Shown: in pieces, positions 3,546 to 58,510 of the stretch
Layout of the letters: the number at the start of each line of letters is the position of its first letter
How positions within the stretch are numbered: the stretch's first letter is position 1
From: Bugula neritina
Lineage: Eukaryota > Bryozoa > Gymnolaemata > Cheilostomatida > Bugulidae
Reading direction: 5' to 3'
DNA length: 64,000 bases
Assembly: GCA_964035545.1 (NCBI GenBank)
Contig: OZ037773.1
Location: 994,251 to 1,058,250, forward strand
The notes under the pieces: model-generated
The model's database searches: none
What the model was told of the DNA's origin: nothing
Seen by the model: the letters and a program-made list of their open reading frames with translations, nothing else
Made by a program: the position numbers and the translations under genes

Positions 3546-4675
3546 ATGGACATTAATACCGAGTTCACAGGTAATCCAGTATGAGTCTTGTATTCCTATC
3601 CATGGAAACGGGCTCGATGCCAGTAAATTCTGAACTAATTCAACAGATTGAATCAGAATTACTGGGAACCACATTTCACGTGAATGACGATGAAGACACT
3701 GTAATGGCCGACGGTCTGTTAGACCTGGAGCTAGACACTGTTCTTGGTCAGTCCACACATGATTCACTGGTTCCTCGAGTGCATTCTAAAAGTTGTGACT
3801 CTCAGGCTAGTAACAGTCGACAGTCACTAGAATTATGTTGTAAAGATCCACCGCGATCTAACAATAATTCTACTTTTGTAGACACACTCGCGCCCGTCTC
3901 TCCGGGCATGCCTTCTCTAGAGATGGCGTGGGATCCAGAGCCGGCCCCACCCACTTCCACAACCAGACAACTACCACCCCAGTTGGAAGCAACCTCTAAC
4001 TGGACTACCCGTGCCACAGAGAGAGAGATTAAGACTCATAGAGGAGATGACAGTAACCGCGAATGCCGCCTATGTCAGCAGCGGTTTACAACCCATCGTA
4101 GGCTGAGAGTCCACTTGCCACAGCATTACATCACAACGTTCTGCCCATGCGGAGAATATAGTTACAATCGTGATTATCTACTGCGTCACCAACGCATTAT
4201 GCAGTGCTTTCAAGGACACGTCTATGAAGTAGACAAATCATCATATCCCGCATTCCTTAACGCCATCAGACCCCTCATCACCGACTCGGCTTGGCTGTCT
4301 CGCCTAGAGCAAGGCTTTCCCTCCCCTCGACCCATCATCTCTGAAACCATGGATAAGCCTACAAAATCAGCTAACTCCCCACCTCTCAGTCCTATACGCC
4401 AACCGCATACACTCCCCCGTGTCGTACTACAGAGGGTAGACACGAAGGCGTATACACTCCCTCCCCCACTTCCATCTTCAGAACGAAAAAGGCACAGACA
4501 GCAGACTTTCTCTCGTTCTTCCCCTCTGGCCCGCAACTTACGTGAAGTAGAAGCTAGGGCACACGACCTGGAGCAAGAAGTGTATAGACTGGCCCCGCGC
4601 GTGCATGCTGCATCCAGTGAACTCAAGTATCTACAGGAGTCTATTAAACGCATGAAGCGGGCGGCCAACGATTAA
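3546..4675 (+). CDS. E1 ORF3: spliced two-zinc-finger, coiled-coil protein
   Basis: Proposed as two exons: 3546-3570 (ATG plus 7 codons plus one G, donor GTAATC) and 3882-4675 (acceptor TTTTGTAG, branch-like CTAAC at 3858-3862). The intron is 3571-3881, 311 bp. The G left by exon 1 completes the first codon of exon 2, giving an open frame of 272 aa. Visible parts are a proline-rich N-terminus; a C2H2 finger with C70, C73, H86, H90 (C-x2-C-x12-H-x3-H); a second motif C96-x-C98-x12-H111-x5-C117; and a C-terminal heptad-rich segment ending in basic residues. No signal peptide or membrane segment is seen, so it is not env-like. Function unknown; a nucleic-acid-binding or targeting role is inference. 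An unspliced frame begins at 3581, so an intron-retained form cannot be excluded. Confidence 0.75.
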
Positions 4676-4921: not shown

Positions 4922-4953
4922 TCAGAAAAAGGGCTTTCTGCTGGAGGGGGCAG
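4922..4953 (+). promoter_or_regulatory. E1 polypurine tract with upstream stem-loop
   Basis: CTGGAGGGGGCAG directly precedes the LTR TG and is the expected plus-strand primer. Just upstream, CAGAAA and TTTCTG form an inverted repeat. The same stem plus tract occurs in E2, E4 and E6, where the stem is a perfect 7 bp. Confidence 0.8.
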
Positions 4954-5259
4954 TGTGGTGGCTCGTAGAGCTACCAGCAACACAATACGCAAGGTTGCGT
5001 ATTGACCCGGAACGATGTATTAGCCAATTAGCTAAGCTGCTTATGAATAATAGTAGCAGCTTCGAGCTACTAGCCCAGTTGAGGATAGTGCTGTAAATTA
5101 AATAGACGTGTGTATTATTAACTGTTGTATATTAGATTTTATTATGTATTCTTGTATTCAAATATAACGATATCTACTCGACTTATCACGGTGAAGTTTT
5201 TCTAGTAATAAATAGACTCTCTTGGTTGCACATCGACCCTAATTCTGAAAATCATAACA
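4954..5259 (+). repeat. E1 3' LTR, 306 bp (family I)
   Basis: Begins TGTGGTGGCTCG and ends ATCATAACA. It has the same length and ends as the E7 5' LTR (57305-57610), with scattered substitutions. Confidence 0.93.
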
Positions 5260-9919: not shown

Positions 9920-10012
9920 CCATTATTCTCAAAAAAAATTCTTAAAAAGGCTATATTTTCAGTAGGATGCATGACTGTACATATACTGTTTACTTATGTT
10001 AATTCTTACTTC

Positions 10013-10766
10013 CACAGGATAGTTAAGGGCAACCTTTTAGCTGCAACTGCCTTGCTGAGGTTTGCATTGTAATCATATAAGAATTCAGTACCAGTAAAAT
10101 AAAATCTCACCTAATTGTGCTAGAGTCAAAATTTAAAAACTATGTTGTAGATCTTTTTTTTCTCCAGTGTAAGTTTTTTGGAAATTTCAATTTTCATTTT
10201 TTTCGCGAAGTTATAGACAAAAAACTGCCGAATTTTGGCCAATTTTGTCTGAAAAGCTGACTTTTCAGTACCAGTAAAATATCTCAGCAGCAAAGCATGA
10301 TATCTGAATAAAAATTGCACTGCTGGAATCCTGAGATATTTCTCCAGTGTAAATTTTTTTCTTTTTTCAATAACTCTGCTAGATTTCTCATAAATTGGTG
10401 ATTTATACACTGAAAATGCCATATTTTCTCATAAGAAACTAGCAGCGCGCAGCACTTCACGCTTCACTGAGCACGTAGGGATGAGAAGATATTGGCGCCT
10501 ACATAATAATTACAGGCTAGCTAGCTGGCAGGCTATAATGAATAGCTCGCTTTGTACTTTGTTTATGTAGCACCCATAATGGAATGTTGATAGATAACGC
10601 AGCCCTAACGAAGGTTGCTGCTTATTGGTTGTAGTTTAATCTTAGGCTAAACAATTACAAGTAGGCAACACGCATGCCACCCGCAGAGCAATATTATTCA
10701 AGAACCTGAACTACATTTTGTGAGAAATTTATGATATTCTTAGTGAGGATGCCCAACTATCCTGTG
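10013..10766 (+). mobile_element. TIR element, CACAGGATAG family, copy a (754 bp)
   Basis: Starts CACAGGATAGTTAAGGGCA and ends with a near-perfect inverted copy (GCCCAACTATCCTGTG). Copies b (20680-21829) and c (56171-56935) share both ends and the interior. No transposase frame is visible, so it is non-autonomous. I could not define a clear target duplication. Confidence 0.82.
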
Positions 10767-11628: not shown

Positions 11629-11937
11629 TGTTAATGTTTTCCAGAATTAGGGTTGATATGCAATCCAGAGAGTCTAATTACTTGCTATAGAACTGCACCA
11701 GGATAAGTCGAGTGAACGAGTATATATTTTAAACACAATAATACATTACAAAAACGATACAAATACATTTGACAATTCTACACATCTAGGCTATTCAGCA
11801 CTCTAACTTCGACTAACTAACAGCAGGAAAACTAATACTGCTGCTAACTATCAAAACCGCTAATTGGCTATCACTTGTTCCGGGTCAATTACACGACCCT
11901 GTATACTGTGCTGCTGGTAGCCCCACGAGCCACCACA
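11629..11937 (-). repeat. E2 3' LTR, 309 bp
   Basis: On the minus strand it begins TGTGGTGGCTCG and ends TAACA. It is preceded (11938-11970) by the polypurine tract CTGGTGGGGGCGG and a perfect CAGAAAG/CTTTCTG stem with a 4-nt loop. Confidence 0.93.
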
Positions 11938-12224
11938 CCGCCCCCACCAGCAGAAAGCCCTCTTTCTGATATAAAAAATATTTCTTCATTACCCACATAC
12001 ATCAGTAGACAAAATTGGAAAAAGACAATATCTAAGATATACAATAACAGACAGAGTCATTATAACAGCAGGCTACATACAATTGGCCAGCTATAGAGGA
12101 GAAATACCGGCTAGCTGTGGTATTGGGCAAAGGGTCGACCTGTCGAGCAGTCAAGCATTTACATGATAGTCTTGGGTCTCCCAAGAGGACGAAGTTGTGG
12201 ATTATTCCGGCAGCAGAACCAGAG

Positions 12225-13267
12225 TCAGTGTTGGGCACGCCGATGTTTGGCTTGGCACGTACGTAGCTTCCGTTTAATCCGGCCCACCGATCCTTTTAGT
12301 TGGAAGAGCCTCGTCGTGGTATTAAGCAAGTCCGGTGCTAACTGGGTAAATTCCTCTTGCAGGCGGAGGAGGCGTTCCTCCACTGTGGCCAGGCGAGCAG
12401 GGTCTGGGGACGGTGTCCGTCTGCGGCGCAGAGGGGGACTGGGAGACCTGGTTCGTCTCTTCGTCGGGGTAGGGGAGACCTCTCCTTCTTCAGGATAGGA
12501 AAACTCTTCGGGGGTGTACGCAATCTGAGGGCGGTCAGATACCAATGGAGATTGTTGCCTGGCATAGTTTAGTACACGCTGGAAACCTGAGGTCAGGACG
12601 GCTGACAACATCGCCTTCTTTACCAGGGGTCGTATCAGAGTGAGGAATTCTGGATAGAGCTTGGCATCCACCACGTAATTCTCTCCGGAGAAACAGCCCG
12701 TCGCTCGATGTCTGGTGACGGGGTAGGGGTAGACATCATTGTATCCACAGGGGCAGAATGTGAGTAAGAGATGGGCGTTGACATGTAGCTTCAAGGAGCG
12801 GTGAGAGGCACATTCTTCGTCACAAATCTGGCACCGCGTCCGTCCTCTGGACCCCCAGGCCGTTTCTATCTGCTCCTCTGTTTCTAGTGGCTCGGGCCGG
12901 TCACCATTGGCATACTCCTCAGGATGCGGAGCAGGAAGTGCTCTATCCCGTACCCTGGTTGTAACGGGTCGAGTGTAATCTGAAAAAGTTTCAACAGTGT
13001 TAGTATAGTACACTGTCGTGTTGTCAGCTTGAACAGTCTGGCAACTACTCTCTCAGTTACCTCGTAGAGATTTATGGTAGTGAATAGTCAGATAGAACAC
13101 GTATTGCAATGAGATTATAAAATCTCTAAGTCAACTGAGTTCTTACTACGGTAGTTCACTAACCTATCTCCAGCTCGTTTGACTCAGTGAGTCGGAGCTG
13201 AGCGATGCAATCTAGTTTCATATTAAGATATAGTTAACTCACCCCACGATCTGTTGTCGTAAGACAT
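12225..13267 (-). CDS. E2 ORF3: spliced two-zinc-finger, coiled-coil protein
   Basis: Exons 13267-13243 (25 nt, ATG) and 12979-12225, intron 12980-13242 (263 bp). The donor is GTGAGT, the acceptor TTTTTCAG, and a perfect TACTAAC branch site lies at 13005-12999, about 19 nt upstream of the acceptor. The phase-1 G completes the first codon of exon 2; the product is 259 aa and fully open. It has a C2H2 finger (C-x2-C-x12-H-x3-H), a second C-x-C-x12-H-x4-C motif and a C-terminal leucine-rich helix ending in a basic stretch. The sequence is much closer to E4 ORF3 than to E1 ORF3, although the pol next to it is E1-like. Function not known. Confidence 0.82.
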
Positions 13268-17909: not shown

Positions 17910-18751
17910 AAACTGACCGTTTCTCCCGGTGGCGGCGCCAGTGGCCGTACGGGCTCAGCGGCGGTGCCTACAGGGGTTTGTGGCGTCAGTGTTGCTATCA
18001 GTTTGGCCAGCATGTCTGTCAGTTGAGTGAGTTTCGATGCTGTCGCTAACTGAGCCACGGCAGCCGCGGCGGAGGTTTCCTCCTCTCGTCCCGCTGCCGT
18101 GTCCGCGCGGTCTACCTCCACTTGACGGGAGCTCCCGCGACTTTTATGCATTTGATTTGCTAGGAGGTAAGCTTCCCCCTCTGTCAGAGCGTCTTCAACG
18201 GTGGTGACTCCCCTAGCTAGAAACTGGTGGTGGAGACCCAGATCGTCGACAGATGCTATGAAAGCCTCGAGGGTATACCTCTCGTGGTTGACTGGGGGCA
18301 AGTCGCTGTATGCGATCTGTGCCAGCTTCATGACCGCCGCGGCATGTTCCCGCAGCGGGGTGCGTGGATCACGCCGCAACCTTTGCAATCGGGCCCGGGC
18401 ATCTGTAGCAGAGAGCCCGAAGCGGGCCCGCAGAGAAGCAAAGATATTATCAATGTCTACGCCCAGCCCATAAGGCTTGGCTTTGTCCATCAATGCCATT
18501 CTAAGCTTCAGCAGGGCCACCCTAGGGGGCCACTGGGCGACGTCCATTACGTCGCTAAACTCTTGGATGAACTGCTCCACCCCCTCTTCGCCCGTGAAGG
18601 TGGGCGCCTTTAACCGGTAGCGGTCTTCAGTTAGTTCTCGCGGAACCCTTCGCTCTTCTACTACATGGTTAACAGGCATTGTCTCTACAGCATTGTCTCT
18701 ACGCTCACCTTCTGCTGCCAGTGGTTGCGTTCCAGCATTTTCAGTCTCCAT
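17798..18751 (-). CDS. gag: E2 gag (capsid-nucleocapsid)
   Basis: An uninterrupted 317-aa frame starting 13 nt after the primer-binding site. The capsid-like region carries the APTFTGEEGVEQFIQEF block and a conserved RARFGL...LREHA segment typical of retrotransposon gag. One CCHC zinc knuckle (CWVCGNQGHFRKYC, C-x2-C-x4-H-x4-C) sits near residue 285. It would form the particle and bind the RNA genome. The homologous E7 gag lacks the knuckle. This gag looks intact and could in principle be supplied in trans. Confidence 0.92.
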   Translation of the reverse strand: METENAGTQPLAAEGERRDNAVETMPVNHVVEERRVPRELTEDRYRLKAPTFTGEEGVEQFIQEFSDVMDVAQWPPRVALLKLRMALMDKAKPYGLGVDIDNIFASLRARFGLSATDARARLQRLRRDPRTPLREHAAAVMKLAQIAYSDLPPVNHERYTLEAFIASVDDLGLHHQFLARGVTTVEDALTEGEAYLLANQMHKSRGSSRQVEVDRADTAAGREEETSAAAAVAQLATASKLTQLTDMLAKLIATLTPQTPVGTAAEPVRPLAPPPGETVSFCWVCGNQGHFRKYCPFLTPGLNYRGPQMFPPPAGRR

Positions 18752-18782: not shown

Positions 18783-19090
18783 TGTTATGTTTTCCAGAAT
18801 TAGGGTTGATATGCAATCCAGAGAGTCTAATTACTTGCTATAGAACTGCACCAGGATAAGTCGAGTGAACGAGTATATATTTTAAACACAATAATACATT
18901 ACAAAAACGATACAAATACATTTGACAATTCTAAACATCTAGGCTATTCAGCACTCTAACTTCGACTAACTAACAGCGGGAAAACTAATACTGCTGCTAA
19001 CTATCAAAACCGCTAATTGGCTATCACTTGTTCCGGGTCAATTACGCGACCCTGTATACTGTGCTGCTGGTAGCTCCACGAGCCACCACA
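18783..19090 (-). repeat. E2 5' LTR, 308 bp
   Basis: TG...CA ends; nearly identical to 11629-11937. It would carry the promoter, but no clear TATA position can be assigned by eye. Confidence 0.93.
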
Positions 19091-20252
19091 CCTAACCGAA
19101 TTCCGCTACAATTTCTGCTGCCAGTTTTCGTTAGCCAGTTTTCACCAGTTATTGCCGGTATCCTTAAATTTTGAACCACCGCCAAGAAGATCCAGCATGA
19201 AAGGAGACGCCAAATCTTTGAAAATCTTTGTTGATATTATGAAGAAGATAAAAGCAAATGAAGATAATGAAGACAGTTGCAGCACAGAAAATACAGCAGT
19301 AGTAGCAGCAGTAACAATAATATTAATGTTAGAAGGAATATCTAGAAAATTGACTAGTTGACACACATATCAGTAATATAGACTGGTTGCAGTGAGTAAC
19401 TTTACAATTTTATGTTAAGGAAATATTGACCTCTTTTTATTATTATTCTATTTGAACTAATAATGATGATGATGAACTCTTTATTTGATAGATCAATAGT
19501 ACAAGAAAAAATAAAATACTTCTATTTGCAGGCAAAGATGGAAGTTAATATTTTCGAATGTATAAAAATACAATCTGCAGTATATTTGCTTTCTGTATAA
19601 CAGTTTTTTTAAATATTATAAGGTACATATAATATTATTAAATACAGTATGATACTTGAAAATAGAAATTGTATACGAGTATTATATTGAGTACATGAGA
19701 GTTATAGCCTGGCCTTGATGGTCATCTGCTCTGGGTAATTAGAACAACAGTCTTCTAGTGAAGTTCAAGAAGGAAATGATTGATTTCCAGTTATCCATGG
19801 AGGGGTTAGTATGAGCTCTGGTGACATCATAGTGTAGTGAATTTACAGTTCACTATAAACTGTGAGTCCACTTATGCAAGGCCTTTCACCAGATTTCATA
19901 CAATTTGAATAGCCTTTATTATTGCGATAATTCACTCTGCCGCTACTGTTAACTGTTAACACTAGTCCGCACGATTACATAATAATAGAGTAACTTACAC
20001 ACAACTTTACAGTATTAGAACTCGATTCACTCTGCTGGCTACGCTGCCTAACTAGCTTCCACTACACATTTGTAGCCCCGCCTACTAATTAATTGTTAGC
20101 CACATCTCATTGGTCAACACGATGGTGCCATCCTGATGACACGATGTTGGCTGCATCATGTAACTGTCCGGGTGAGAAGTATCCTTTCGATATAATTAAT
20201 GCATTACTAAAAACTATTACAATAGTCCGCACACAAGTACATGTAGTGATAT
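19091..20252. other. Intergenic sequence, no supported gene
   Basis: A 69-codon lysine- and serine-rich frame at 19152-19361 resembles nothing I know. The rest is AT-rich without recognisable repeat ends. Confidence 0.45.
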
Positions 20253-20464
20253 TGTTGTAATTTGCACAATTACTATGCGTGAGTTTTTGCTTGCGTATTC
20301 AGTATGCTTTCTAACTAGTAATTACAAGGGTAGTAGCCAAATAATAATCTTTATTATCCACAATAAACACAGTATAAAACATTACATCAAATTACAGTAA
20401 TACAATAGCCATCTAACTATGTGCGTACGCTTCGAGTTCTCGCTCACAACAACGTGATAAGCTA
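20253..20464 (-). repeat. E3 3' LTR, truncated
   Basis: Matches 23256-23467 closely; similarity ends abruptly at GTGATAA, where intron sequence of ORF3 begins on the other side. Confidence 0.8.
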
Positions 20465-20679
20465 AGAGCTAACAGTGTTAAGGATTATACACTGAAGTAC
20501 CGCCGGCATGTACAGCCTGACAGGTGCTATGTTCAGTTAAACACTCGCGAGATTCAGGCTAATGAATAGTTGATCGAGAACACACTCGCTATGACAGATT
20601 ATTAGAATCTAAGTGGACGTGTGTTCCCACCACTGTGTTTCATTATCGAATCTTCAGCTTGCTAACTGGTATAGTTAGA

Positions 20680-21829
20680 CACAGGATAGTTAAGGGCATC
20701 CTCACTAAGAATATCATAAATTTCTCTCAAAATGTAGTTTAGGTTCTTGAATAATACTACTCTGCGGGTGGCATGTGTGTTGCCTACTTGCAATTGTTTA
20801 GCCTAAGATCAAACTACAACCAATAAGCAGCAACCTTCATTAGGGCTGCATTATCTATCAACATTCCATTATAGGCGCTACGAAAACAAAGTACCAAGCA
20901 AGCTATTCATTATAGCCTGCCAGCTAGCAAGCCTTTAATTAGCATGTACGCGCCAATATCTTCTCATCCCTACGTGCTCATTGAAGCGTGAAGCACTGCC
21001 CGCTGCTAATTGAGTCGGTTTACTTCATTTAGTACACACCAGCAACTTATGACCTAACATTAAAGTTTGCTCAAAATCAATTGAAATTTACTATACATGG
21101 CATTTTTATGTGCTGGGAGGGGATTCCCCAACATTAAAGCACAGGTCATTGTCATATGCACTTAATATTCTATATGTGCGACCGTTACGAAAAAACCGTA
21201 ACGGTCTGTAACCAAAACTAGCTGAATAATTAGGGAAAAACATGGGAAATGAAGCAAAATTAAAAAGAACTTTGATTATTTAGGTGTATTTATTGGTGTT
21301 TTACTAGTTTTGGCCAAAAAACCATGTTCATTACCAGCTAAATTGTGAAAAATAGCCAAAAACTGAAGATATCCAGTGTGTACTAAATTAAGTAAAATGA
21401 CCCAATTTACTATGAAAAAACATAGCATTTTCAGTGTATAAATCACCAATTTGTGGGCAATCTAGAAGAGTTATTGGAAAAAGAAAAAAATTACCCTGGA
21501 GAAATATCTCAGGATTCCAGCAGTGCAATTTCTAATTAGATATCATGCTTTGCTGCTGAGATATTTTACTGGTACTGAAAAGTCAGTTTTTCAGGCAAAA
21601 TTGGCCAAAATTAGGCAGTTTTTTGTCTATAACTTTGCAAAAAAAATTAAAATTGAAATTTCCAAAAAGTTACCCTGGAGGAAAAGAAGATCTACAGCAT
21701 AGTTTTTAAATTTTGACTCTAGCACAATTAGGTGAGATTTTATTTTACTGGTACTGAATTCTTATATGATTACAATGCAAACCTCAGCAAGGCAGTTGCA
21801 GCTAAAAGGTTGCCTTTAACTATCCTGTG
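20680..21829 (-). mobile_element. TIR element, CACAGGATAG family, copy b with nested insertion
   Basis: CACAGGATAGTTAAGGGCA at the left, inverted TTTAACTATCCTGTG at the right. The interior is inverted relative to copies a and c. Removing the nested 394-bp element leaves about 756 bp, matching the other copies. It sits inside the E3 ORF3 intron. Confidence 0.82.
21011..21404. mobile_element. Second TIR element (394 bp) nested in copy b
   Basis: Ends TGAGTCGGTTTACTTCATTT and an imperfect inverted copy (AATTAAGTAAAATGACCCA). A homologue lies at 38920-39345 in the Ig gene. Copy a of the host element has no insertion at the equivalent place (about 10440), giving an empty site. The interior has a small palindrome around ACCGTTACG. 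No coding capacity. Confidence 0.75.
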
Positions 21830-21868
21830 GAGCTTACTGATGTAGTCTAGTTCCCGTACCAAAAACAA

Positions 21869-23160
21869 CTAACTCACCCTTCGATCCAGAATATTAAAAC
21901 ATTTTGAATGAGAGTGGTACTGATTATTGTTTTGTGGCATGCTACTCTTGACTGCATCAAAGTAGGAAAAGACCGGGCAGCGTGGTTGTGAAGCGTGACT
22001 AGGACTTTTTGCTTCCGGCGAATGAATCTCATTTGTGATTCCGACAAGGCATAAGTTGATATTTTCGTGGTGTTCAAAACTCCCACGTTTCTTTGCCTGT
22101 CTTCCCATACGATACCTAGCTAGACTTTCATAACTGCCGCTTGTAGCGCGGTCATATACAAAGTCTCCGAGGTACGCTGGGGATTGCTTAGTGAGCGGTC
22201 CTGGAGATATCGTCACTGTGAGAGGCGGTGTGCTCACCCGTGGATTGTTATGTCTCACGGGTGGTGTTTCCAGCCTGTTTGTGACGGTTTTTCCTACGTT
22301 GGTGTCTCTGTACGGAGCCCCTCCCACGGGGGTTATTGCACTTCCGGACTCGTTTCTGGTTCCGAAAGTGGTGGTGGCAGGCCTGACGTTGGGGCGATGG
22401 GCGCGTTTCCAAAGACGGAAGTGGCTTTTCCTGCCTCGCCAAGTTTTCCTGGAGAGTCATGGGCGCGCTTCTGGCCAGGTCGACAGTCTTCGCTTGCCAA
22501 GACCTTCTAGCACAATGCGTCTGCCGCCCCGTTTCACCAGGGAGACGGCTATGCTTGTCGGTCTGGCAGATTTTGCACTGTCTCACTCTGCGCCGTATGT
22601 CCGGCTCCATGTTGGGCCGGTACCACCGGAGTTGTAACTTGGTGACCACTCCCTGGACTCCCGCCTGAGTCTGCTGGTGGATGTCCCGTATCAACTCCCG
22701 GCAGATGGCAGCGGGGCAGACTATCCTCTCCCTTTCTGGCTGTCTGTTGTTGGCGGCCAAAGTCATGGTCAGCAGGCCATCTGGCCCGATCCGCAGGGAG
22801 TTCCAATGTTGACAGTACAGCCGTAACTCGGCGCATCCTTGTCCCCGATGTCTACCACTGGGTCGTCGCCCATCCTGTTTTGCTCGGTACACGTCAGCTA
22901 CCACCCCGGAGAAGCGAAGATCCCGTCAATGTCAGGTCCCGCTCCGTAGGGCTTAGCCTTGTTCGTCAGCGCCATCCTGAGTTTGAGCATGCCACCCTTG
23001 GTGGCCACCGTGCAACTTCCATCACATCTTGAAATTCTTGGATAAATTGCTCTATGGCTTCTTCGCCCGTAAAGGTGTGCGCCTTCAGCCGGTATCTGTC
23101 CTCACTGGGTTCTCTGGGAACTCTCACTTCTTCCAACACTACTGGTTTCACAGGTATAAC
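21869..23160 (-). pseudogene. E3 gag-integrase-tail remnant
   Basis: Minus-strand order: gag N-terminus (22966-23151, with the TFTGEEAIEQFIQEF block), an abrupt junction near 22905 into the region before the integrase zinc finger (22904-22550, H-x3-H and C-x2-C visible), no catalytic core, then Pol tail (22327-21869) with a degraded HHENINLC motif. The mini-exon before the GTGAGT donor (21877) begins ATG but hits TAA two codons later. No functional product is expected. Confidence 0.75.
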
Positions 23161-25599: not shown

Positions 25600-25942
25600 T
25601 GTAATGGGATTACGTAGCATAATAATGCATTTGTCTCCTCCTGTTTGGGAATACTTATAACCATGTTCTACTATCCAATCAGAAGGACCGGAAGGCAAGG
25701 TTCCGGTCAAGTGACTGTTCGCGGGTTAGCTAGCAGAAACCACGTTGTTGAGAGCAGGGGCTCGTAGTAGCTAGACGTGTTTATAATTGATTGATGTATT
25801 GTGGTTTTGACTTACTGTTATAATTATGTTTATCGAATTAAATAAAGGTTATCGTACGCAAGCTCTGTTAGTAGTTGCTAGTTAAATTGAAACTAAATAC
25901 GCAGGCAATCCACGCTTGATAATTGTGCTAAAACTCACAACA
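25600..25942 (+). repeat. E4 5' LTR, 343 bp
   Basis: TGTAATGGG...CACAACA; a weak AATAAA occurs in the right half (AAATAAAGG, about 25842). It differs from the 3' LTR at CGTACGC versus CGTATGC. Confidence 0.95.
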
Positions 25943-25943
25943 G

Positions 25944-25961
25944 TGGTGGCAGCGGTGGGAT
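25944..25961 (+). promoter_or_regulatory. E4 primer-binding site, tRNA-Leu
   Basis: TGGTGGCAGCGGTGGGAT, an exact complement of ...ATCCCACCGCTGCCA plus CCA of animal tRNA-Leu (AAG/TAG type), after one spacer base. Confidence 0.88.
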
Positions 25962-25976
25962 AATGCGTATATCAGA

Positions 25977-27041
25977 ATGGCAAAAGAAAGAGCTACGGAA
26001 CTACTCATGCCACTAAGTGAAGAGGAGGAAGATGACATTGTTACACCTGTAGACCCCGCAGTTTGAGATATGGTGAGAGTTGTTATAGGATTCGAGGAGA
26101 CTATATATCGACTGAAGATACCCACCTTTACAGGTAAAGATTCAGTAGAACAATTCATTCAAACTTTTCAAAAGCTGCGGAATTTTGCACGGTGGCCACC
26201 AAGAATGGCGTTGCTCAAGCTTAGGACAGCGTTGGCGGACAAGGCCAAGCCATGCGGCGAGGGAACTGACGTGGCCAGTATCTTCGCTTCCCTGCGGGTC
26301 CGTTTTGGCATCTCCACCATGGACACGGAGCCCTCCACGGCCCCCGCACCCTGCGGGCCGGCGAAGAAGCCTCGAAGGGAAACTAGACCCAAGCCGCACC
26401 GCCGGGAGCCACTCCGAGGCGGACTCAATGAGCTGTCGACCTCAGACACTGCGAGGGAGAAGACGAAGATGCCGTACGGGGCGCCGTCTTCCCCTCCGCG
26501 GCAGGTCCATAGCCGTCCCCTAACGGGAGAAGAGCCGGTAGTACGTACTTGCACTATGCCTGGCCACTCCCGGGACACCGTCCACCGCAAGGTAGACGGT
26601 GGCCATACCTCCAGGCCGGGAGCTGTGGAGAGCGCGCACCCGAAAGTCCCACCTGTCCGCAGCTCTAACCAGCTGACACGGAAAGGAAAGACCTCGGTGC
26701 CATGCCTCCACTCCCCCTCTGAACCAGTGAGCCTACCACCCGCCTCTCCACCAAGCTGTACTCCTTCTGTTCAAGAAGACGACAGCAGGCCATCGCGGGA
26801 AACCGCGATGAAAAGTCCTCTAGAGAAGCCGCCCTTCGGGCGAAGGACTGCCTCACCCCACAGCCAGGAGACCCGTGGGACAACATCAGACGGTTGCGTG
26901 AATGACGAACAGCGCCCAGAGACGGCCACGTCACTACACAAAACCGAAGCTACACCTCACCTTGGGGATCCTGACATGCCCCCAGAAGTGGCACAGGACC
27001 CCACGCCGAACCTGTCTCAACCGATGGCGTCAAGGAGCTAG
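25977..27041 (+). pseudogene. E4 gag and pre-RT remnant
   Basis: ATG at 25977 opens a gag-like frame that meets a TGA near 26064 and then continues in the same frame from 26070 for 323 aa. The capsid block PTFTGKDSVEQFIQTF and RVRFGIS are recognisable. After that the frame holds short collinear remnants of the segment between protease and RT (VVRTCTMPGHSRDTVH corresponds to VVRSCTVPGRSRATIH in E7; QEDDSRPSRETAMKSP to EEDVGPSLGDATEAPP). The zinc knuckle and DSG protease motif are missing. The frame stays open across these deletions, which is notable. Confidence 0.7.
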
Positions 27042-27067
27042 GACACCTCCAGGAAATTATTCCGGGG

Positions 27068-28153
27068 GTGGTAGCCAACGTCTATCGGATGAAACGGGAA
27101 GGGCGACGACCCAGTGACACACAACGAAAGCAGGGCTGCCCTGAGTGGCAGCTGTACTGCCGACATTGGAACGCACTGCGGATCGGGCCGGATGGTCTAC
27201 TGACCATATCTTTGGCTGATAACCACCACCAGCCAGACCAGGAGAGGACCCTCTGTCCTGCCGCCATCCGCCAAGAATTGATAGAAGAGGTACACCAACA
27301 GGCTCATGGGGGAGCCCAACAGGTGTTCACCGAACTACAACTCTGGTGGTATTGGCCTCACATGGAGCGTGATGTACAACACAGTGTTGGGCAGTGCGGA
27401 GTCTGCCGGGTCAGTAAGCACGGCCCCCCTACTGGGGAGGTAGGGCGGCGAAGGCAAAGTGCAGAAAGACCCGGGCAGACGGAGACTGCTAACCTGGTCG
27501 ACGAACCGCCTAGGATGCAACCCAAAGCAGTGGCGAGGCAGGAAAAGCCACCCCCGTCCAGGGAAGTGCGCTCACCGCCGTTAGCGTGCAAGCCGCCACC
27601 GCCACTTCCTAGGTCAGGAACCGACCTGGAAGTGCAAAAACCCCCCAAGGGAGGGGCTCCGTGCGGAGGTACTAGGAAAGCTCCATCTGTTACAAATTGG
27701 CTGGAAGCACCACCCAAGAGACGTGATCGTCCACGGGTGCGTAAACCACCATGGCTGGAGACAACACTTCCCCAGGCTCCGAACGGAGATGCTAGGAAAG
27801 CTCCATTTGTCACAAACTGGCTGGAAGCACCACCCAAAAGACGTGACCGTCCACGGGTGCGTAAACCGCCTTGGTTAGTGACGACACCTTGGAAACGGTG
27901 TCCTAAGCCAGGCTCCGCGTATCGCAAGGACTTACCACGTTCCGTTCAGGGCGCGGTCAAACGTCCTACGAAACGCCGTGAGGGGAAGAGAGCAGAGCGT
28001 GGGAGTTGTGAGCACCACGAAAATATTAACTTTTGCCTCGGCGGAAATTCAAATAAGATTCATACGCCGGAGGTAATAAGTCATAGTCACGTTTCACAAC
28101 CACGCTGCTCGCTCTTTCATCACGTTAATACAGCTTTGAGTAGACGTACGTAG
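27068..28153 (+). CDS. E4 integrase zinc domain fused to Pol tail
   Basis: A 361-aa open frame. Residues 1 to about 130 match the segment before and including the integrase HHCC domain (H-x3-H in HQQAHGGAQQ, C-x2-C in CGVCRVSKHG). The catalytic core and GPY/F module are absent. The tail follows, with a 120-bp tandem duplication (units near 27671 and 27791) and the SCEHHENINFC motif near residue 315. It is distinct from a normal integrase and cannot catalyse strand transfer. Whether it is translated is unknown; the open frame could be chance given recent amplification. Confidence 0.6.
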   Translation: MVANVYRMKREGRRPSDTQRKQGCPEWQLYCRHWNALRIGPDGLLTISLADNHHQPDQERTLCPAAIRQELIEEVHQQAHGGAQQVFTELQLWWYWPHMERDVQHSVGQCGVCRVSKHGPPTGEVGRRRQSAERPGQTETANLVDEPPRMQPKAVARQEKPPPSREVRSPPLACKPPPPLPRSGTDLEVQKPPKGGAPCGGTRKAPSVTNWLEAPPKRRDRPRVRKPPWLETTLPQAPNGDARKAPFVTNWLEAPPKRRDRPRVRKPPWLVTTPWKRCPKPGSAYRKDLPRSVQGAVKRPTKRREGKRAERGSCEHHENINFCLGGNSNKIHTPEVISHSHVSQPRCSLFHHVNTALSRRT

Positions 28154-28182
28154 AATTCATAAACATACCACTCTCATTCACA

Positions 28183-29088
28183 ATGGCTTGCCAAGAATCG
28201 AGGGGTGAGTTAGTTATGTTTTTGGTACGAGGGCTAAACTGTATTAATCAGCTTAACTATAATAGAGTAAGCTGGAGACTCGGTAATGATTTTTAGTGGT
28301 GAGAATTCACACTGACTCTAAGACTTAACAGTCTGATACAGCAGTGCGTGTTTTCGATCAACTATTCATTAACTGAGTCTCACGAGTGTCTAATTGAGTT
28401 AAGTACCCACCAGGCTGTATACGCCGGTTGTACTCAGTGTACCCTCTTACACTGTTATACTCTTGCAGATCACACTCGATCGACCAACTCTGGGTCACAG
28501 GATCTACACTCTCTCTCCTCTTTGGATAACGGACCGGAAATGGACAACGGACTGCTCGCGGTGCTGCGTCGAAGACACAGATGGGTGTCGCGACGAACGG
28601 AGCGGCAGATTGAAGAAGTCTGGGGACCGAGTAGGTCACAAAACACCTGCCACGTGTGTTACGAAGAGCTTCCCTCACACCAAGGACTACGGCTGCATGT
28701 GAATGCACACTTCCTGCTACGGTTCTGTCCGTGTGGATTTCACGACGTGTACCCATACCCCGTCGTGGCTCATATGATGGACTGTTTCGCGGGCGAGGGC
28801 TATGTAGTAGACGCGGATAACTACGATAAATACCTAGAAGCGGTCAAACCAGTGGTTAAGAAGGCTTTAACCTGGGCCGCATTATCCTCCGGATTTTATA
28901 CATTGCTAACAGCCGCCCGTCAGAAGTCCCTTATGGTAAAAACGGTCGCCGCAATCATACCGCGGCTAGATAATACCCCTATGGAAGCATCAGACTCCCC
29001 AGAAGAGGCGATGCCAACTCCACCCAGACCGACCCGGCTAGCAACCGTTGAAGAAAGACTCTTACGGCTGCAGGATGAATTCACCTAG
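28183..29088 (+). CDS. E4 ORF3: spliced zinc-finger protein, C-terminus cut by a stop
   Basis: Exon 1 is 28183-28204 (22 nt, ATG), donor GTGAGT; intron 28205-28468 (264 bp); acceptor CTCTTGCAG. The phase-1 G completes the first codon of exon 2. The product is 213 aa with a C2H2 finger (CHVCYEEL...H..NAH) and a second C-x-C-x12-H-x3-C motif. A TAG at 29086-29088 replaces the glutamine codon seen in E2; beyond it the same frame continues 40 codons to TAG at 29209-29211 and contains the rest of the coiled coil and basic end. So this copy lacks the coiled-coil tail unless the stop is read through. Confidence 0.75.
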
Positions 29089-29455
29089 TTGGCTCCCGAC
29101 TTACTCAGCACTTCAGTGAGCCTTAATGAACTAAAGGGCTCAGTGGGACGCCTTAAGCGTAGACTACGTGCACGGCAAGCACGACACCAGATCCAGTCCC
29201 TACAAAAATAGGAGCTGACAGTTGGCGATTCCACCCCGCATATCCTCGGGGTACTACGTTGTGATCATGCAAATGCTTGACTGCTAAAGACCTACAATCC
29301 AGGACTCTCTCTTTATAGCTGGCCAGTTGTACGCTGGCCATCCGTTATCTTACTTATGTGTTTATATTATCATACATTTGGTATTTCTCTTCTTTCTCTT
29401 TGTGGATTTTCTTGACTTATGTTATTTTTGCATTATTATACTATTTCCGTTTTTA

Positions 29456-29488
29456 TCAGAAAGTATGGCTTTCTGCTGGTGGGGGCGG
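29456..29488 (+). promoter_or_regulatory. E4 polypurine tract with upstream stem-loop
   Basis: CAGAAAG and CTTTCTG form a 7-bp stem with a 5-nt loop, followed directly by CTGGTGGGGGCGG and the LTR. Confidence 0.8.
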
Positions 29489-30216
<728 letters not shown>

Positions 30217-36595: not shown

Positions 36596-37545
36596 ATGAC
36601 TGACACTGTGACTTATTTGGAGGGTAAGTCCATTAAGGAAATTCTGTTATTTAGTTAGAATTTAGCCTAGTATCCGAATTCAGTCTCACTTCAGCATAAT
36701 GATCAAGTTGGTCTCCTGGCGACTTGGAGTTGACTGATCACTGAGATGGTTTATGGATACCAGGAGATTCTTGATTATCCAACTCAGTCGAAGTGTGGTA
36801 CTGACAAGATGAAGCCTCCTACAAGAAAGTGTGTGATTTAGTACCGCTTACAGTTGAATCCATGTACTCTGTTGCAGGTGAGGCTCCGCCTGCATCCCCG
36901 GGTTGCAGGCTTTGCTAGATGCCCGACCCCGAACTGGGAAATGCATTTTTTTCCACCATGAAGCAGGAGAGCGTGCACGTGCTACAGCATTTCACAGTGA
37001 CCTTTTGCCCCTGTAGCGTCCACAATTTTTATAGACGCTATCCTCTGTCATCAAAGGAATCAGCAGTGCCATGTCGGCCACTTAGTGGAGGTAGATCAAG
37101 ACTCCTATGCGCAATTCCAAGACTTGATTCTCCCCATGTATCCTCCCCATTGAGACGTGAGTCATTGCTGCAGGGGTTTCCCAGTTCCTGGCCGGTGATA
37201 CCAAGTGACTCAGATGCCACTGGTTCCAACTATGACCCTGTAGTCTATGTGTTTGATGAAGTACAGACGTGTTCTCTTTGCGTGATGGTAACCTGTGCTG
37301 GTCGGTCAGCAGAAGAGTCTACTCAGCCACTTCCCTCTCAGTCCTCCCTTACCCTTGCATTGCGCCGGAAGAGAAGGAAGAGATCAAAAACTACTACAGT
37401 CCCTAATGACACAATAGATGCTGAGATATGTACTAACTTAGAGAAACTACAACGATGCTGCACACAACCGTGTAAGGAGCAGCGAAGGACGACATCGGAA
37501 CTAGCTAGGTTGCAGAAGCTCTTCAACAGAGGGACTGCTAACTGA
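36596..37545 (+). pseudogene. E5 ORF3 relic with the same exon structure
   Basis: Mini-exon 36596-36623 (ATG plus 8 codons plus G), strong donor GTAAGT, intron 36624-36877 (254 bp), acceptor CTGTTGCAG. Exon 2 runs into a TAG after 13 codons, then a frame from 36919 keeps VLQHFTVTFCPC, the second-finger start, and a C-terminal leucine-rich basic segment (to 37545). The first finger is largely lost. It shows that the two-exon structure is old in this group. Confidence 0.65.
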
Positions 37546-49444: not shown

Positions 49445-50574
49445 TTAACTGCGGGCCGCACGCTTCATGCGTTTAATAGACTCCTGTAAATATTTGAGTT
49501 CACTGGATGCTGCCTGTACCCGTGGGGCCAGCCTGTACACTTCTTGCTCCAAGTCGTGCGCCCTAGCTTCTACCTCACGTAGGTTACGGGCCCAGGGGGA
49601 CGAGCGAGAGGAAGTTGGCTGTCTGTGTCTTTTCCGCTCTGAGGATGGAAGGGGAGGAGGGAGTGTATACGCATTTGTGTCTACTCTCTGTAGTACGACA
49701 TGAGGAAAGGTATGCGGTATGCGTAGAGGACTGTGAGGTGGAGAGTTAGTAGACTGTGTAGGTTTATCTGCGGCTCCAGAGATGATGGGTCGCGGGGAAG
49801 GGAAGCCTTGCTCCAGGCGAGATAGCCGAGCTGAGTCAGTGATGAGTGGTTTGATGGCGTTGAGAAAGGCAGGATAGGATGATTCGTCTACTTCATAGAC
49901 ATGCCCTTGATAACACTGCATAGTACGTTGGTGCCGCAGTAGGTAATCACGATTGTAGCTATATTCTCCGCAAGGGCAGAAAGTGGTGATGTAGTGCTGT
50001 GGCAAGTGTACTTTTAGTCTGCGGTGGGTTGTGAATCGCTGCTGGCAGAGGTTGCATTCACGATTACTCTCACCTCCTTGATGGGTCCTGATTTCTCTCT
50101 CTGTGGCAGGGGTAATCCAGTTGGAGGTTGCTTCCAACTGGGGTGGCAGTTGCCTGGTTGTAGGAGTTGTTGGGGCCGGCTCTGGGTCCCACGCCATCTC
50201 TAGAGAAGGCATGCCCGTAGAGACGGGCGCGAGTGTGTCTACAAAAGTAGAATTATTGTTAGATCGCGGTGGATCTTTACAACATAATTCTAGTGACTGT
50301 CGACCGTTGCTAGCCTGAGAGTCACAGCTTTTGGAATGCACTCGAGGAACTGATGAATCATGTGTGGACTGACCAAGAACAGTGTCTAGCTCCAGGTCTA
50401 ATAGACCGTCGGCCATTACAGTGTCTTCATCGTCATTCACATGAAACGTGGTTCCCAGTAATTCTGATTCAATCTGCTGAATTAGTTCAGAATTTACTGG
50501 CATCGAGCCCGTTTCCATGAATAGGAATACAAGACTTATACTGGCTTACCTGGGAACTCGGTATTAATGTCCAT
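49445..50574 (-). CDS. E6 ORF3: spliced two-zinc-finger, coiled-coil protein
   Basis: Exons 50574-50550 (25 nt, ATG) and 50238-49445; intron 50239-50549 (311 bp) with donor GTAAGC, acceptor TTTTGTAG and branch-like CTAAC about 20 nt upstream. The phase-1 junction gives an open 272-aa product with the same fingers as E1 (C-x2-C-x12-H-x3-H, C-x-C-x12-H-x5-C) and a coiled coil near the C-terminus. In this copy the preceding Pol-tail frame (51177 to 50536) is in frame with the mini-exon, so splicing would also join the tail to the fingers. Intact. Confidence 0.78.
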
Positions 50575-54192: not shown

Positions 54193-54640
54193 GCTTCCAT
54201 ACGGCTGGGTGCTCCTGGAGCGGTCAGTCTCTGGGGGAGACACAACTTGGGTCTGCACAGCGGGCCTCCGCTTCGTCTTAGAGACAACGGGGGTTTTCTG
54301 AGGTCGGGAGGGTAGCTTGGGGTACTCTTGCGAGTAAGCTGAATCCTCCTCCACAACCTCCTCGGGCAACCCCGCGAACCGGTTACGGAGTGGCCAGGCT
54401 GGAGGATCGGGTAGACCTTGCGGTCTCCGAGATCTCCGAGGTGCCTGCCATCCTGCTTCTTCTAGCTGCATCCGGGTCTCGAGTGACACGGCCGGAGGAT
54501 CGGGTAGACCTTGCGGTCTCCGAGGTCTCCGTGGCCTCTGCCACTCGGTATCGGCAGACCCTGTGGAGGTCTCTTCTTCTCCTCTTCGAGTCCTATCCCG
54601 GATGGGATTGGCGTGAGGCCCACGGTTGGCGGAAGTTACC
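54193..54640 (-). other. E6 family II gag-pol linker with a 93-bp tandem repeat
   Basis: A proline/arginine-rich linker frame (54489 downward) with the NRFAGLPEE block also seen as NRFEGLPAQE in E2. GGAGGATCGGGTAGACC recurs at 54401 and 54494, a 93-bp (31-codon) period. Confidence 0.65.
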
Positions 54641-55541
54641 GTGAGCCTTGGGTGTTTAAAGGCCCTTGGCCTCTAGGGCAGTGCCTCCTCACGTGCCCTT
54701 GCGCCCCGCACCCCCAACAGGTTAGCAGAGATGGGCGGACAGGGTTGTCCCGTGATCGGGGACCCCGCCTATCCGCCTGTTCGCTCTGCAACTTCGTCAC
54801 CGTAGCCTGCAGGCCTTTCATCATGTCCATTAACATGGTGAGCTGCGTCTGCTCGGGTGATTTAGTTGCAGCTGCTGCTACCTGTGGAGTTGGAAGTGGG
54901 GTGGTCTCCTCATGCTCCTCGACCACTTGGCGGGCTGTATAGCTCGGTCGCCTAGGCTCTTCCACCTGGAAGTAAGCCTTCCCCATTTCCAGCGCTTCCT
55001 CTATACTGTTGACCTTGGCGGCCAGCCAGTATCGCTGCAGGTCCGGGTGATTCACGCTCCGGAAGAACGCGTTGTAAACGAGGCGCTTCCGGTCATTGCC
55101 AGTGGCGTGACCGAAAGCAGCCTGAGCCAGGCGCTCTACCTCGTTTGCGTGGTCTTTCAGGGGAGTCCTCCGGTCCCTCCTCATAATCTGCAAACGATCA
55201 GCTGCTTCTTCGGTTGTTAGGCCGAACCGGGCTCTGAGAGCCCGCATGATGTGCTCTTCATCAGGCCCAAGAGCGAAGCTCTTGGCCCGGCCTGTCAGAC
55301 AGGCCCGAAGTTGGAGGATGCGCACCGGTACTGGCCATTCAGCGATGGTGGCCACATCCTGGAACTCCCTGATGAATTGCTCTACGTCTCCTTCTCCTCC
55401 GAAATTCGGGGGCTGGAGGCGATACCTGTCACCAGGTGATGCCTGTCCTTGCCCCCGCAATCCCTGGAGGGCTGTGACCAGCGCCTCAACAGTGAGGGCT
55501 GGTGGTGTTGCTGCCTCAGGGGCTGTGTCCCCTGAGGCCAT
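54636..55541 (-). CDS. gag: E6 gag (family II)
   Basis: An uninterrupted 301-aa frame beginning 31 nt after the primer-binding site. It has a capsid-like region (PPNFGGEGDVEQFIREF, RARFGLT, PLKDHA), then a heptad segment (QLTMLMDMMKGLQATVTKL) and one CCHC knuckle (CWGCGAQGHVRRHC, C-x2-C-x4-H-x4-C). Its closest relatives in the window are the gag remnants of D1, D2 and E5, not E2 or E7. It would form particles and bind RNA; it looks intact. Confidence 0.92.
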   Translation of the reverse strand: MASGDTAPEAATPPALTVEALVTALQGLRGQGQASPGDRYRLQPPNFGGEGDVEQFIREFQDVATIAEWPVPVRILQLRACLTGRAKSFALGPDEEHIMRALRARFGLTTEEAADRLQIMRRDRRTPLKDHANEVERLAQAAFGHATGNDRKRLVYNAFFRSVNHPDLQRYWLAAKVNSIEEALEMGKAYFQVEEPRRPSYTARQVVEEHEETTPLPTPQVAAAATKSPEQTQLTMLMDMMKGLQATVTKLQSEQADRRGPRSRDNPVRPSLLTCWGCGAQGHVRRHCPRGQGPLNTQGSR

Positions 55542-56150: not shown

Positions 56151-56170
56151 ATAGCCGTGTAAAAGGATTT

Positions 56171-56935
56171 CACAGGATAGTTAAGGGCAACCTTTTAGCT
56201 GCAACTGCCTTGCTGAGATTTGCATTGTAATCATATAAGAACTCAGTACCAGTAAAATAAAATCTCACCTAATTGTGCTGGAGTCAAAATTTAAAAACTA
56301 TGTTGTAGATCTTCTTTTTCCCTAGTGTAATTTTTTGGAAATTTCAATTTTCAATTTTTTTGCAACGTTATAGACAAAAAACTGCCCAATTTTGGCCAAT
56401 TTTGCCAGAAAAGCTGACTTTTCAGTACCAGTAAAATATCTCAGCAGCAAAACATGATATCTGAATAAAAATTGCACTGCTGGAATCCTAAGATATTTCT
56501 CCAGTGCAAGTTTTTATCTTTTTCCAATAACTCTGCTAGATTGCTCATAAATTGGTGATTTATACACTGAAAATGCCATATTTTTTCATAAGAAACTAGC
56601 AGCGCGCAGCACTTTGCGCTTCAATGAGCACGTAGGGATGAGAAGATATTGGCGCGTACATGCTAATTACAGGCTTGCTAGCTGGCAGTCTATAATGAAT
56701 AGCCTGCTTTGTACTTTGTTTATGTAGCACCCATAATGGAATGTTGATAGATAACGCAGCCCTAATGAAGGTTGCTGCTTATTGGTTGTAGTTTAATCTT
56801 AGGCTAAACAATTGCAAGTAGGCAACACGCATGCCACCCGCAGAGCAATATTATTCAAGAACCTGAACTACATTTTGAGAGAAATTTATGATAATTTTGC
56901 TGAGGATGCCCTTAACTATCCTGTGTTACCAGGTA
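56171..56935 (+). mobile_element. TIR element, CACAGGATAG family, copy c (765 bp)
   Basis: CACAGGATAGTTAAGGGCA and inverted TGCCCTTAACTATCCTGTG are nearly perfect TIRs. It interrupts sequence that is uninterrupted at 9620-9640; comparison with that empty site suggests at most a TT duplication. Confidence 0.85.
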
Positions 56936-57304: not shown

Positions 57305-57610
57305 TGTGGTGGCTCGTGGAGCTACCAGCAACACAATACGCAAGGTTGCGTATTGACCCGGAACAATGTATTAGCCAATTAGCTAGGTTGTTTTATGAGT
57401 AATAGTAGCAGCTTCGCGCTACTAGCTCAGTTGAGGATAGTGCTGTAAATTAAATAGACGTGCGTATCATTACTGTTGTACATTAGATTTTGTTATGTAT
57501 TCTTGTATTAAAATATAACGATATCTACTCGACTTGACTCGGTGAAGTTTCTCTAGTGATAAATAGACTCTCTTGGTGGCACATCAACCCTAAATCTGAA
57601 AATCATAACA
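57305..57610 (+). repeat. E7 5' LTR, 306 bp (family I)
   Basis: TGTGGTGGCTCG...ATCATAACA, same length and ends as the E1 3' LTR. Confidence 0.95.
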
Positions 57611-57643: not shown

Positions 57644-58510
57644 ATGGAGACTGAGAATGCTAGAATGCAACCACCCCCAGTAGAAGGTGAGCGTAGAAAT
57701 GCTGTTAATCCTGTGAATCGTGAGGGAGAAGAAGCTTATAGACATTGCTTGAAAGCTCCCACCTTTACTGGGTCGGAAGATGTCGAACAATTTATACAAG
57801 AATTTAGAGAGGTAATGGAGGTTGCTCAATGGCCGCATAGAGTGGCCCTTATTCAATTGCGGAGAGCGGTGACGGAGCAAGCCAAGCCGTACGGAGTGGG
57901 AACGGACGTAGACGGAATACTGGCTGCGCTGCGGGCCCGTTTTGGCATCTCCGTAATAGACGCTAGGACCAAGCTAGAGAGATTGTGCCGCACCCCGCGG
58001 ACCTCACTGCAAGAACATGCTGCGACGGTGAAGAAGCTGGCGCAGATTGCATATAGCGATCTGCCAGCACAACACCAAGAGCGTTACACCTATGACGCCT
58101 TTGTCCAGTCACTAAACAACCTGGGCCTAGACCATCACCTACGAGCTAAAGGGATAACCAGAATAGAGGATGCCCTGAAGGCTGGAGAAGCTTACCTGTT
58201 GGCTACCCAAATGCATCGAGCACAAAGGAACCCACCAGTAGTTGGAGTCAGCGCTGCCAGGGCTACGACAGGTCCCGAAGCCCTCCCGCTGGAAGCCGAA
58301 GTGGACCGTATGGTAGATATGCTGGGACAACTGGTAACCATTCTGGCCGGTGCTGGCCCCGGTCAGGCCCTGCGGGTGCCCCCAACGCCTGTGGGGCAGG
58401 GCTGGAGCAGCGCTGATCAGGACCAGGGACAGAAAAGACGACCCCAATACCAGGGGGCGTTAAACTGTCACGGCCCGCGGACACTCTCCCTCCCCGCGGG
58501 CCGCAACTGA
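57644..58510 (+). CDS. gag: E7 gag, without zinc knuckle
   Basis: A 288-aa open frame starting 14 nt after the primer-binding site. The capsid region aligns with E2 gag (APTFTGSEDVEQFIQEF, RARFGIS, LQEHA, TYDAFVQSL). At the place of the E2 CCHC knuckle the alignment shows no gap, but all four zinc ligands are replaced (positions reading G, S, Q, R), leaving a Gln/Arg-rich basic segment (DQGQKRRPQYQG). RNA binding would have to use the basic segment, or this gag is defective. Otherwise intact. Confidence 0.88.
   Translation: METENARMQPPPVEGERRNAVNPVNREGEEAYRHCLKAPTFTGSEDVEQFIQEFREVMEVAQWPHRVALIQLRRAVTEQAKPYGVGTDVDGILAALRARFGISVIDARTKLERLCRTPRTSLQEHAATVKKLAQIAYSDLPAQHQERYTYDAFVQSLNNLGLDHHLRAKGITRIEDALKAGEAYLLATQMHRAQRNPPVVGVSAARATTGPEALPLEAEVDRMVDMLGQLVTILAGAGPGQALRVPPTPVGQGWSSADQDQGQKRRPQYQGALNCHGPRTLSLPAGRN

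Follow-up and report, generated by a model that had tools for sequence, protein, structure and literature searches.

A spliced third open reading frame in two families of Ty3/gypsy-type elements of Bugula neritina, most likely translated from the gag AUG

A 64,000-nucleotide stretch of the Bugula neritina genome (the window: contig OZ037773.1, positions 994,251 to 1,058,250) contains Ty3/gypsy-type elements in which pol is followed by a mini-exon, an intron and a third open reading frame (ORF3). Judged from genomic copies of these elements, the splicing is genuine in the E2 and E4 families, two of four; the family of E1, whose cassette lies at 3546–4675, is the doubtful one. Translation of ORF3 most likely starts at the gag AUG, by way of a subgenomic mRNA of which one genomic copy appears to preserve the sequence. 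The original prediction had placed six introns in E1, E2, E4, E5, E6 and E7, each preceded by an ATG exon of 22–28 nt ending in phase 1; all six were confirmed in place, bounded by GT and AG. Its six elements are likewise all present, but fall into four families: self-comparison of the window shows E1, E6 and E7 to be one family (92–98% mutual identity) and puts the identity of E1 with E2 at 92% across pol as far as 3405, beyond which the two diverge. Because this divergence follows so similar a pol, the 3' cassette was probably swapped. A spliced third ORF holds for E2 and E4, on intron-less copies and selection on exon 2, and is doubtful for E1, E6 and E7.

Searches for further copies covered the 215.8-Mb assembly of 295 contigs, in which the window sits in contig C9. 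They returned at least 40 matches to the ORF3 of E1 (best 40 of 276 candidates scored), at least 41 for E2 (195 candidates, best 40 scored), at least 44 for E4 (148 candidates, best 40 scored) and at least 37 for E5 (30 candidates).

Intron loss in the E2 and E4 families

The E2 mini-exon (13243–13267, minus strand) begins 24 nt past the pol-frame stop and is followed by an intron at 12980–13242; in E4 the mini-exon (28183–28204, plus strand) lies 29 nt past the pol-frame stop, in a different frame, and the intron spans 28205–28468. Both introns are missing, exactly at the predicted sites, from copies elsewhere in the genome: three of E4 type (L069–L071) and four of E2 type, namely L072, which a junction-pattern search found again, and L087–L089, which the same search added with an identical exact join. 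Copies of this kind are reverse-transcribed spliced RNA, and on this evidence the introns of E2 and E4 are real and spliced from RNA. The same copies rule out a chance pattern of mini-exon and intron in these families. Flanking variants are common to L087–L089, so the seven intron-less copies may equal only two or three events. Contiguous pol-derived sequence lies upstream of the join in L069 and L071; splicing therefore took place on long RNA, and a long E2 or E4 RNA still carrying pol could, on this evidence, have the short intron that separates mini-exon from ORF3 spliced out. Two further candidates, L082 and L083, were rejected as splice products, as pol joins 11 and 14 nt within the intron end and not at the acceptor. 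They are two distinct deletions that end at almost one point, 11 or 14 nt ahead of the E2 ORF3 acceptor.

The splice sites are well kept in sets of 30 E2 and 30 E4 copies, which, as the top-scoring matches to queries that carry the intron, contain no intron-less copies. The donor GT is present in 29/30 copies of each family, the acceptor AG in all 30 of each, and the mini-exon ATG stands 24 nt past the pol-frame stop in 26/30 E2 copies and 29 nt past it in 21/30 E4 copies. The perfect TACTAAC branch site proposed for E2 recurs in 20/30 E2 copies but in 0/30 of E4. It falls within a hairpin, CAGUGU...ACACUG, that stands ahead of the acceptor in 27/30 E2 and 25/30 E4 copies.

A probable gag start for ORF3

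The original prediction took the mini-exon ATG as the start of ORF3 and asked how a ribosome would reach it. This start is doubtful: the ATG lies past the pol stop in most E2 and E4 copies and in the pol frame in E1, and one genomic copy, L084, uses another first exon. The likely answer bypasses the mini-exon, with a start at the gag AUG and a donor after 43 nt. L084 consists of a 5' long terminal repeat (LTR), the leader, and the gag ATG with 43 nt of gag joined exactly to the base with which ORF3 exon 2 begins, and a continuous reading frame leads from the gag AUG across the join. Exon 2, the 3' untranslated region (UTR) and the 3' LTR follow, and the first 102 nt of the latter equal the 5' LTR. 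L096 and L103 were grouped with L084 as evidence for the gag-to-ORF3 junction; a junction-pattern search for gag-to-ORF3 retrocopies matched only L084 and the mini-exon copy L071.

The corresponding donor-like site is present in elements of the window. The gag starts of E2 (18709–18751, minus strand) and E7 (57644–57686, plus strand) each run 43 nt to a phase-1 donor-like GAAG/GTGAGC, and the site agrees in all 6 of the additional E7-type copies read, which were selected from 40 matches listed and are all of one subfamily. The E4 relatives L046 and L064 have GAAG/GTGAGG and GAAG/GTGAAG; their first 14 gag residues differ from those of E2 and E7, and still the donor-like site comes after exactly 43 nt. 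Internally these two are deleted in another pattern, and their gag start is intact. E4 itself retains a gag-start remnant (25977–26016, plus strand) that has lost the 43-nt donor-like site and has a weak phase-1 GT after 40 nt; L090 likewise has lost the site and has a weak phase-1 GT three bases earlier. Six regions were taken for E4-type gag starts, of which L090 held one, L091 began just inside and four missed it.

ORF3 protein and selection

Exon 2 of ORF3 lies at 3882–4675 in E1 (plus strand), where it encodes C2H2-like fingers and a C-terminal coiled-coil-like stretch, at 12225–12979 in E2 (minus strand; a C2H2-like protein), at 28469–29088 in E4 (plus strand; 205 codons in the window copy, 246 in the longer L040) and at 49445–50238 in E6 (minus strand, E1-type). 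ORF3 identity is 53% between E2 and E4, 30% between E2 and E1 and 27% between E2 and E5. Cysteine and histidine spacings around an FCPCG motif are conserved and resemble two C2H2/C2HC fingers, the cysteines of the first finger being missing in E5. A zinc-finger protein rather than env had been proposed; the finger-like spacings agree with this, and the search for env membership gave no env-type Pfam match but C2H2-like fingers and a C-terminal helix. Pfam matches to ORF3 are only sub-threshold, including zf-C2H2_4. An AlphaFold2 model of the E2 protein is poor apart from the C-terminal helix (mean pLDDT 53), and a fold search of the PDB with it gave a best E of 1.2.

Judged from codon positions, ORF3 exon 2 is under purifying selection in E2 and E4. 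Mean pairwise divergence at third versus first and second positions is 0.178 versus 0.044 in the 30 E2 copies and 0.148 versus 0.052 in the 30 E4 copies, and an open exon 2 covering 90% or more of the reference length is found in 17/30 and 16/30, respectively. E4 (25600–29831, plus strand; LTRs at 25600–25942 and 29489–29831, 99.7% identical) is by its sequence a non-autonomous 4.2-kb element: it retains only gag-, protease- and integrase-like fragments, with no reverse transcriptase match at E <= 1e-3. In 17 of the 30 copies, picked as collinear with E4 (several of the 13 left out are similarly structured), the integrase remnant is open in 0/17 and diverges by 0.061/0.064/0.068 at the three codon positions, whereas ORF3 diverges by 0.066/0.038/0.155 and is open in 7/17 against the longer reference. 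The bias in ORF3 beside an unbiased integrase remnant suggests that E4-type copies preserve ORF3 but not integrase, unless ORF3 is brought in by recombination with autonomous elements. Third positions of exon 2 (12225–12979 and homologues) are more diverged than adjoining unselected sequence; this excess could come from exchange with other lineages, which could also import the selection signal of E4.

Upstream of exon 2 the E2 pol tail and intron diverge by 0.03–0.07 per 100-nt window, versus 0.08–0.12 in 3' UTR and LTR windows with more than 100 pairs. For E4 the intron diverges by 0.04–0.06 versus 0.06–0.07 in the unselected integrase remnant; this contrast is weak, and nothing is concluded here from how little pol tail and intron diverge.

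Predicted RNA structure around the mini-exon

The intron of E2 is homologous to that of E4, with 57.8% identity (mean 46.9% and maximum 52.2% in 30 shuffles). A consensus fold of 12 sequences, six from each family, has an energy z of -5.0, with 0/200 column shuffles as good, and 54 pairs versus 34. A second test of the same fold, which had been drawn from the very alignment under test, gave mixed results: none of 500 shuffles and none of the slid versions came up to its cells paired or its covariation score, but 28/500 shuffles reached its number of two-sided pairs (slid versions, 0 or 1). Region by region through the cassette, the E2 and E4 alignment compared with 100 column-shuffled alignments gave z values of -5.4 in the pol tail and -4.6 in the intron, versus +0.6, -1.5 and -1.2 in exon 2, -2.8 in the 3' UTR and -1.8 in the LTR. 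The mini-exon donor is paired in the consensus fold. Single-sequence folds of the E4, E2 and E6 introns have z values of -2.9, -3.0 and -3.4.

Doubtful introns of the E1 family and E5

The E1 mini-exon (3546–3570, plus strand) shares its frame with the pol tail. The predicted intron (3571–3881) lies in an ORF3 frame that is open from an ATG at 3581 to the intron's end and throughout exon 2. The corresponding introns are at 50239–50549 in E6 (minus strand, GT...AG) and 63077–63387 in E7 (plus strand). A consensus donor had been predicted; that of E1, GTAATC, is weak, but 17 other E1-type copies have GTAAGC (16 copies) or GTAAGG (L002). The ORF3 frame is interrupted in two elements: that of E7 is broken right after the acceptor by a 1-nt deletion, and in E5 (intron 36624–36877, plus strand) splicing leads into a stop ahead of 36919. 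No exactly intron-less copy of E5 was among the matches listed.

Whether this family has a functional intron at all seems evenly poised. Without one, ORF3 would begin within the predicted intron, at the ATG at 3602, as an unbroken, N-terminally extended protein. This ATG is kept in 17/18 copies, the ATG at 3581 being found in E1 alone, and the aligned codons of the ORF3 frame across the intron contain no stop in 18 copies (L077 has a 1-nt deletion). Read in the ORF3 frame, the E6 intron has no stop beyond the pol stop, and only 13/5000 shuffles are equally open. Differences between subfamilies are weighted towards third positions (2/2/6 by codon position; six synonymous and three non-synonymous codons), but substitutions are few, and polymorphic sites (22/11/22) lack a clear third-position excess and are not decisive. 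The E1-type intron resembles those of E2 and E4 at 49.6% and 47.8%, inside the shuffled range (maxima of 20 shuffles 52.1% and 52.0%), yet its donor and acceptor are at positions homologous to theirs, with GT kept in 18/18 and AG in 17/18 copies. Two exact patterns, whose halves fit 17/18 copies as far as shown, gave no intron-less E1-type copy, although mutated copies could escape them.

It is improbable, in our judgement, that E1-type splicing instead takes out the pol stop to yield a Pol–ORF3 fusion in place of frameshift or readthrough. The phase fits, and the pol frame continues into the mini-exon, open for all 1500 nt examined upstream in 5/11 aligned sequences (5/10 distinct copies, as E1 is held twice, as E1 and L001); with the intron retained, a pol stop comes 14 nt past the donor in every E1-type sequence except L002. 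Against a fusion stand the failure of the exact patterns to find an intron-less copy and the arrangement of the other families, where it is impossible in most E2 copies, with an in-frame stop 24 nt ahead of the ATG, and in E4 copies, whose mini-exon is in the other frame.

Proposed mechanism and its alternatives

We propose that splicing joins the ORF3 acceptor to a gag donor 43 nt from the start (14 codons and one base, phase 1), and that ORF3 would be translated from the resulting subgenomic mRNA, beginning at the gag AUG. The mini-exon donor would compete with the gag donor for this acceptor as a decoy, sitting in a structured stretch held only by unspliced RNA and thereby keeping enough RNA unspliced for gag–pol and packaging. 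Intron-less copies would then record occasions when the decoy itself got spliced, and ORF3 may be a nucleic-acid-binding regulator of the element's own RNA or DNA and not an envelope protein. We regard this explanation as a whole as somewhat probable.

Several observations weigh against it. The gag-to-ORF3 retrocopy is a single one (L084), it has no clean target-site duplication that we could see, and exact patterns gave no such junction in E2 and E1-type copies. E4 and L090 are without the 43-nt donor-like site, though ORF3 is under selection in their family. The mini-exon ATG is kept in 29/30 E2 and 30/30 E4 copies, whereas a decoy alone needs no ATG, though the copies are young. As to the structure, pairs with two-sided changes number 10 versus a null mean of 7.8 (58/200 shuffles as high), further pair types fall below all 500 shuffles, and lower z values than that of the intron window occur in 3/19 other E7 and 4/27 other E2 windows.

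Some of these points would suit the mini-exon ATG as the true start of ORF3, made accessible by an internal promoter or by a leader spliced on upstream, or else by ribosomes reinitiating past the pol stop on spliced full-length RNA. E1, E2 and E4 share the ATG, the donor and the phase despite differing peptides, the ATG stands at a set distance from the pol stop in most E2 and E4 copies, intron-less L069 and L071 retain pol-derived sequence upstream, and E4 has lost the 43-nt gag site. The gag AUG is simpler, however, with L084 as its witness; the E1-type ATG is internal to the pol frame, and no leader-to-mini-exon join occurs among the copies read, no genome-wide search for that junction having been made. 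We consider a mini-exon start doubtful. Ascidians use spliced-leader trans-splicing, which might supply the 5' end of ORF3 mRNA, but L084 bears the element's own leader, and the Ciona leader motif at two or fewer mismatches gave 370/372 matches versus 297/348 for the reversed pattern, with no exact match listed; no search was made with a different leader. Trans-splicing is a very improbable source.

An extension of the gag-start scheme is tentative and rather unlikely, and is drawn by analogy: ORF3 and the structured pol tail, mini-exon and intron could work as a pair of matched control components, comparable to Rev and its response element. If so, ORF3 from spliced RNA would bind the stretch in unspliced RNA and set export, packaging or splicing, families would trade the cassette on a common pol backbone, and a non-autonomous family would retain its own ORF3 because a matching partner is needed.

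Relation to known systems

In avian leukosis and Rous sarcoma viruses env is spliced to the gag AUG. L084 and the conserved donor-like site point to the same arrangement here, a 3' gene spliced in frame to a donor just inside gag that lends it the gag start; the likeness is one of mechanism, not descent, and the 3' gene here is not env. The negative regulator of splicing (NRS) of Rous sarcoma virus acts as a decoy donor (PMC9143442), and the putative decoy described here would similarly balance spliced and unspliced RNA with a 5' splice site. It differs in lying behind pol, some 260–310 nt ahead of the acceptor, and in being itself spliceable. Splicing retroelements must keep part of their RNA unspliced, and in Cer1 of C. 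elegans the protein CERV, cysteine-rich with a possible C4-type zinc finger, is needed for export of unspliced RNA (PMC10309623). By one retrocopy ORF3 would also come from spliced RNA, and a role in export or binding is putative; no homology is claimed, and the part of the Cer1 account considered has no counterpart of the mini-exon and intron unit.

ORF3s of bdelloid rotifer elements are of env, esterase and exonuclease types. The bdelloid LTR retrotransposons have captured their ORF3s and are reported typically to express them from spliced messages (PMC5408684), and the terms "zinc finger" and "C2H2" are absent from the main text of PMC5408684. OVEX1 (PMC2717909) was also considered. Titles and the beginnings of abstracts of open-licence papers mention no gypsy element of ascidians that has an ORF of this kind. 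Intron-loss and subgenomic retrocopies are splicing events archived in the genome itself, and the homologous, diverged cassettes of E2 and E4 permit comparison. Selection on ORF3 without selection on integrase raises the question of whether ORF3 serves its element in cis.

Elements and other features of the window

LTR pairs in E2 and E4 and a domain order with integrase last identify the elements, by sequence, as Ty3/gypsy-type LTR retrotransposons; in E7 and E6 the Pfam order is asp protease, RVT_1, RNase H, H2C2 and rve. By self-comparison E1 (plus strand) is truncated by the window start and has its 3' LTR at 4953–5259, E2 (minus strand) has its 5' LTR at 18783–19092 and its 3' LTR at 11629–11939 (98.4% identical), and E7 (plus strand) has a 5' LTR at 57305–57610 and extends past the window end. 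The similarity of E6 (minus strand) to E7 stops near 54193. E3 (20454–22904, minus strand), absent from the earlier six, is E4-like, with another repeat inserted between pol tail and intron. The interrupting repeat (20679–21829) has further copies at 10010–10766 and 56168–56925.

Adjoining the truncated E6 pol, behind a leader-like stretch, is a 301-aa ORF (54639–55541, minus strand), which is probably a gag-like start of a different type, belonging to another element. Of six genetic codes applied to the mitochondrial COX1 (L081), code 13, with AGA/AGG read as glycine, puts glycine at sites where it is conserved, which taken alone would point to an ascidian host. Outside the window, COX1 matches were found on contigs C17, C196 and C65 besides the mitochondrial one; the C17 match is without internal TGA and possibly comes from a second organism in the assembly.
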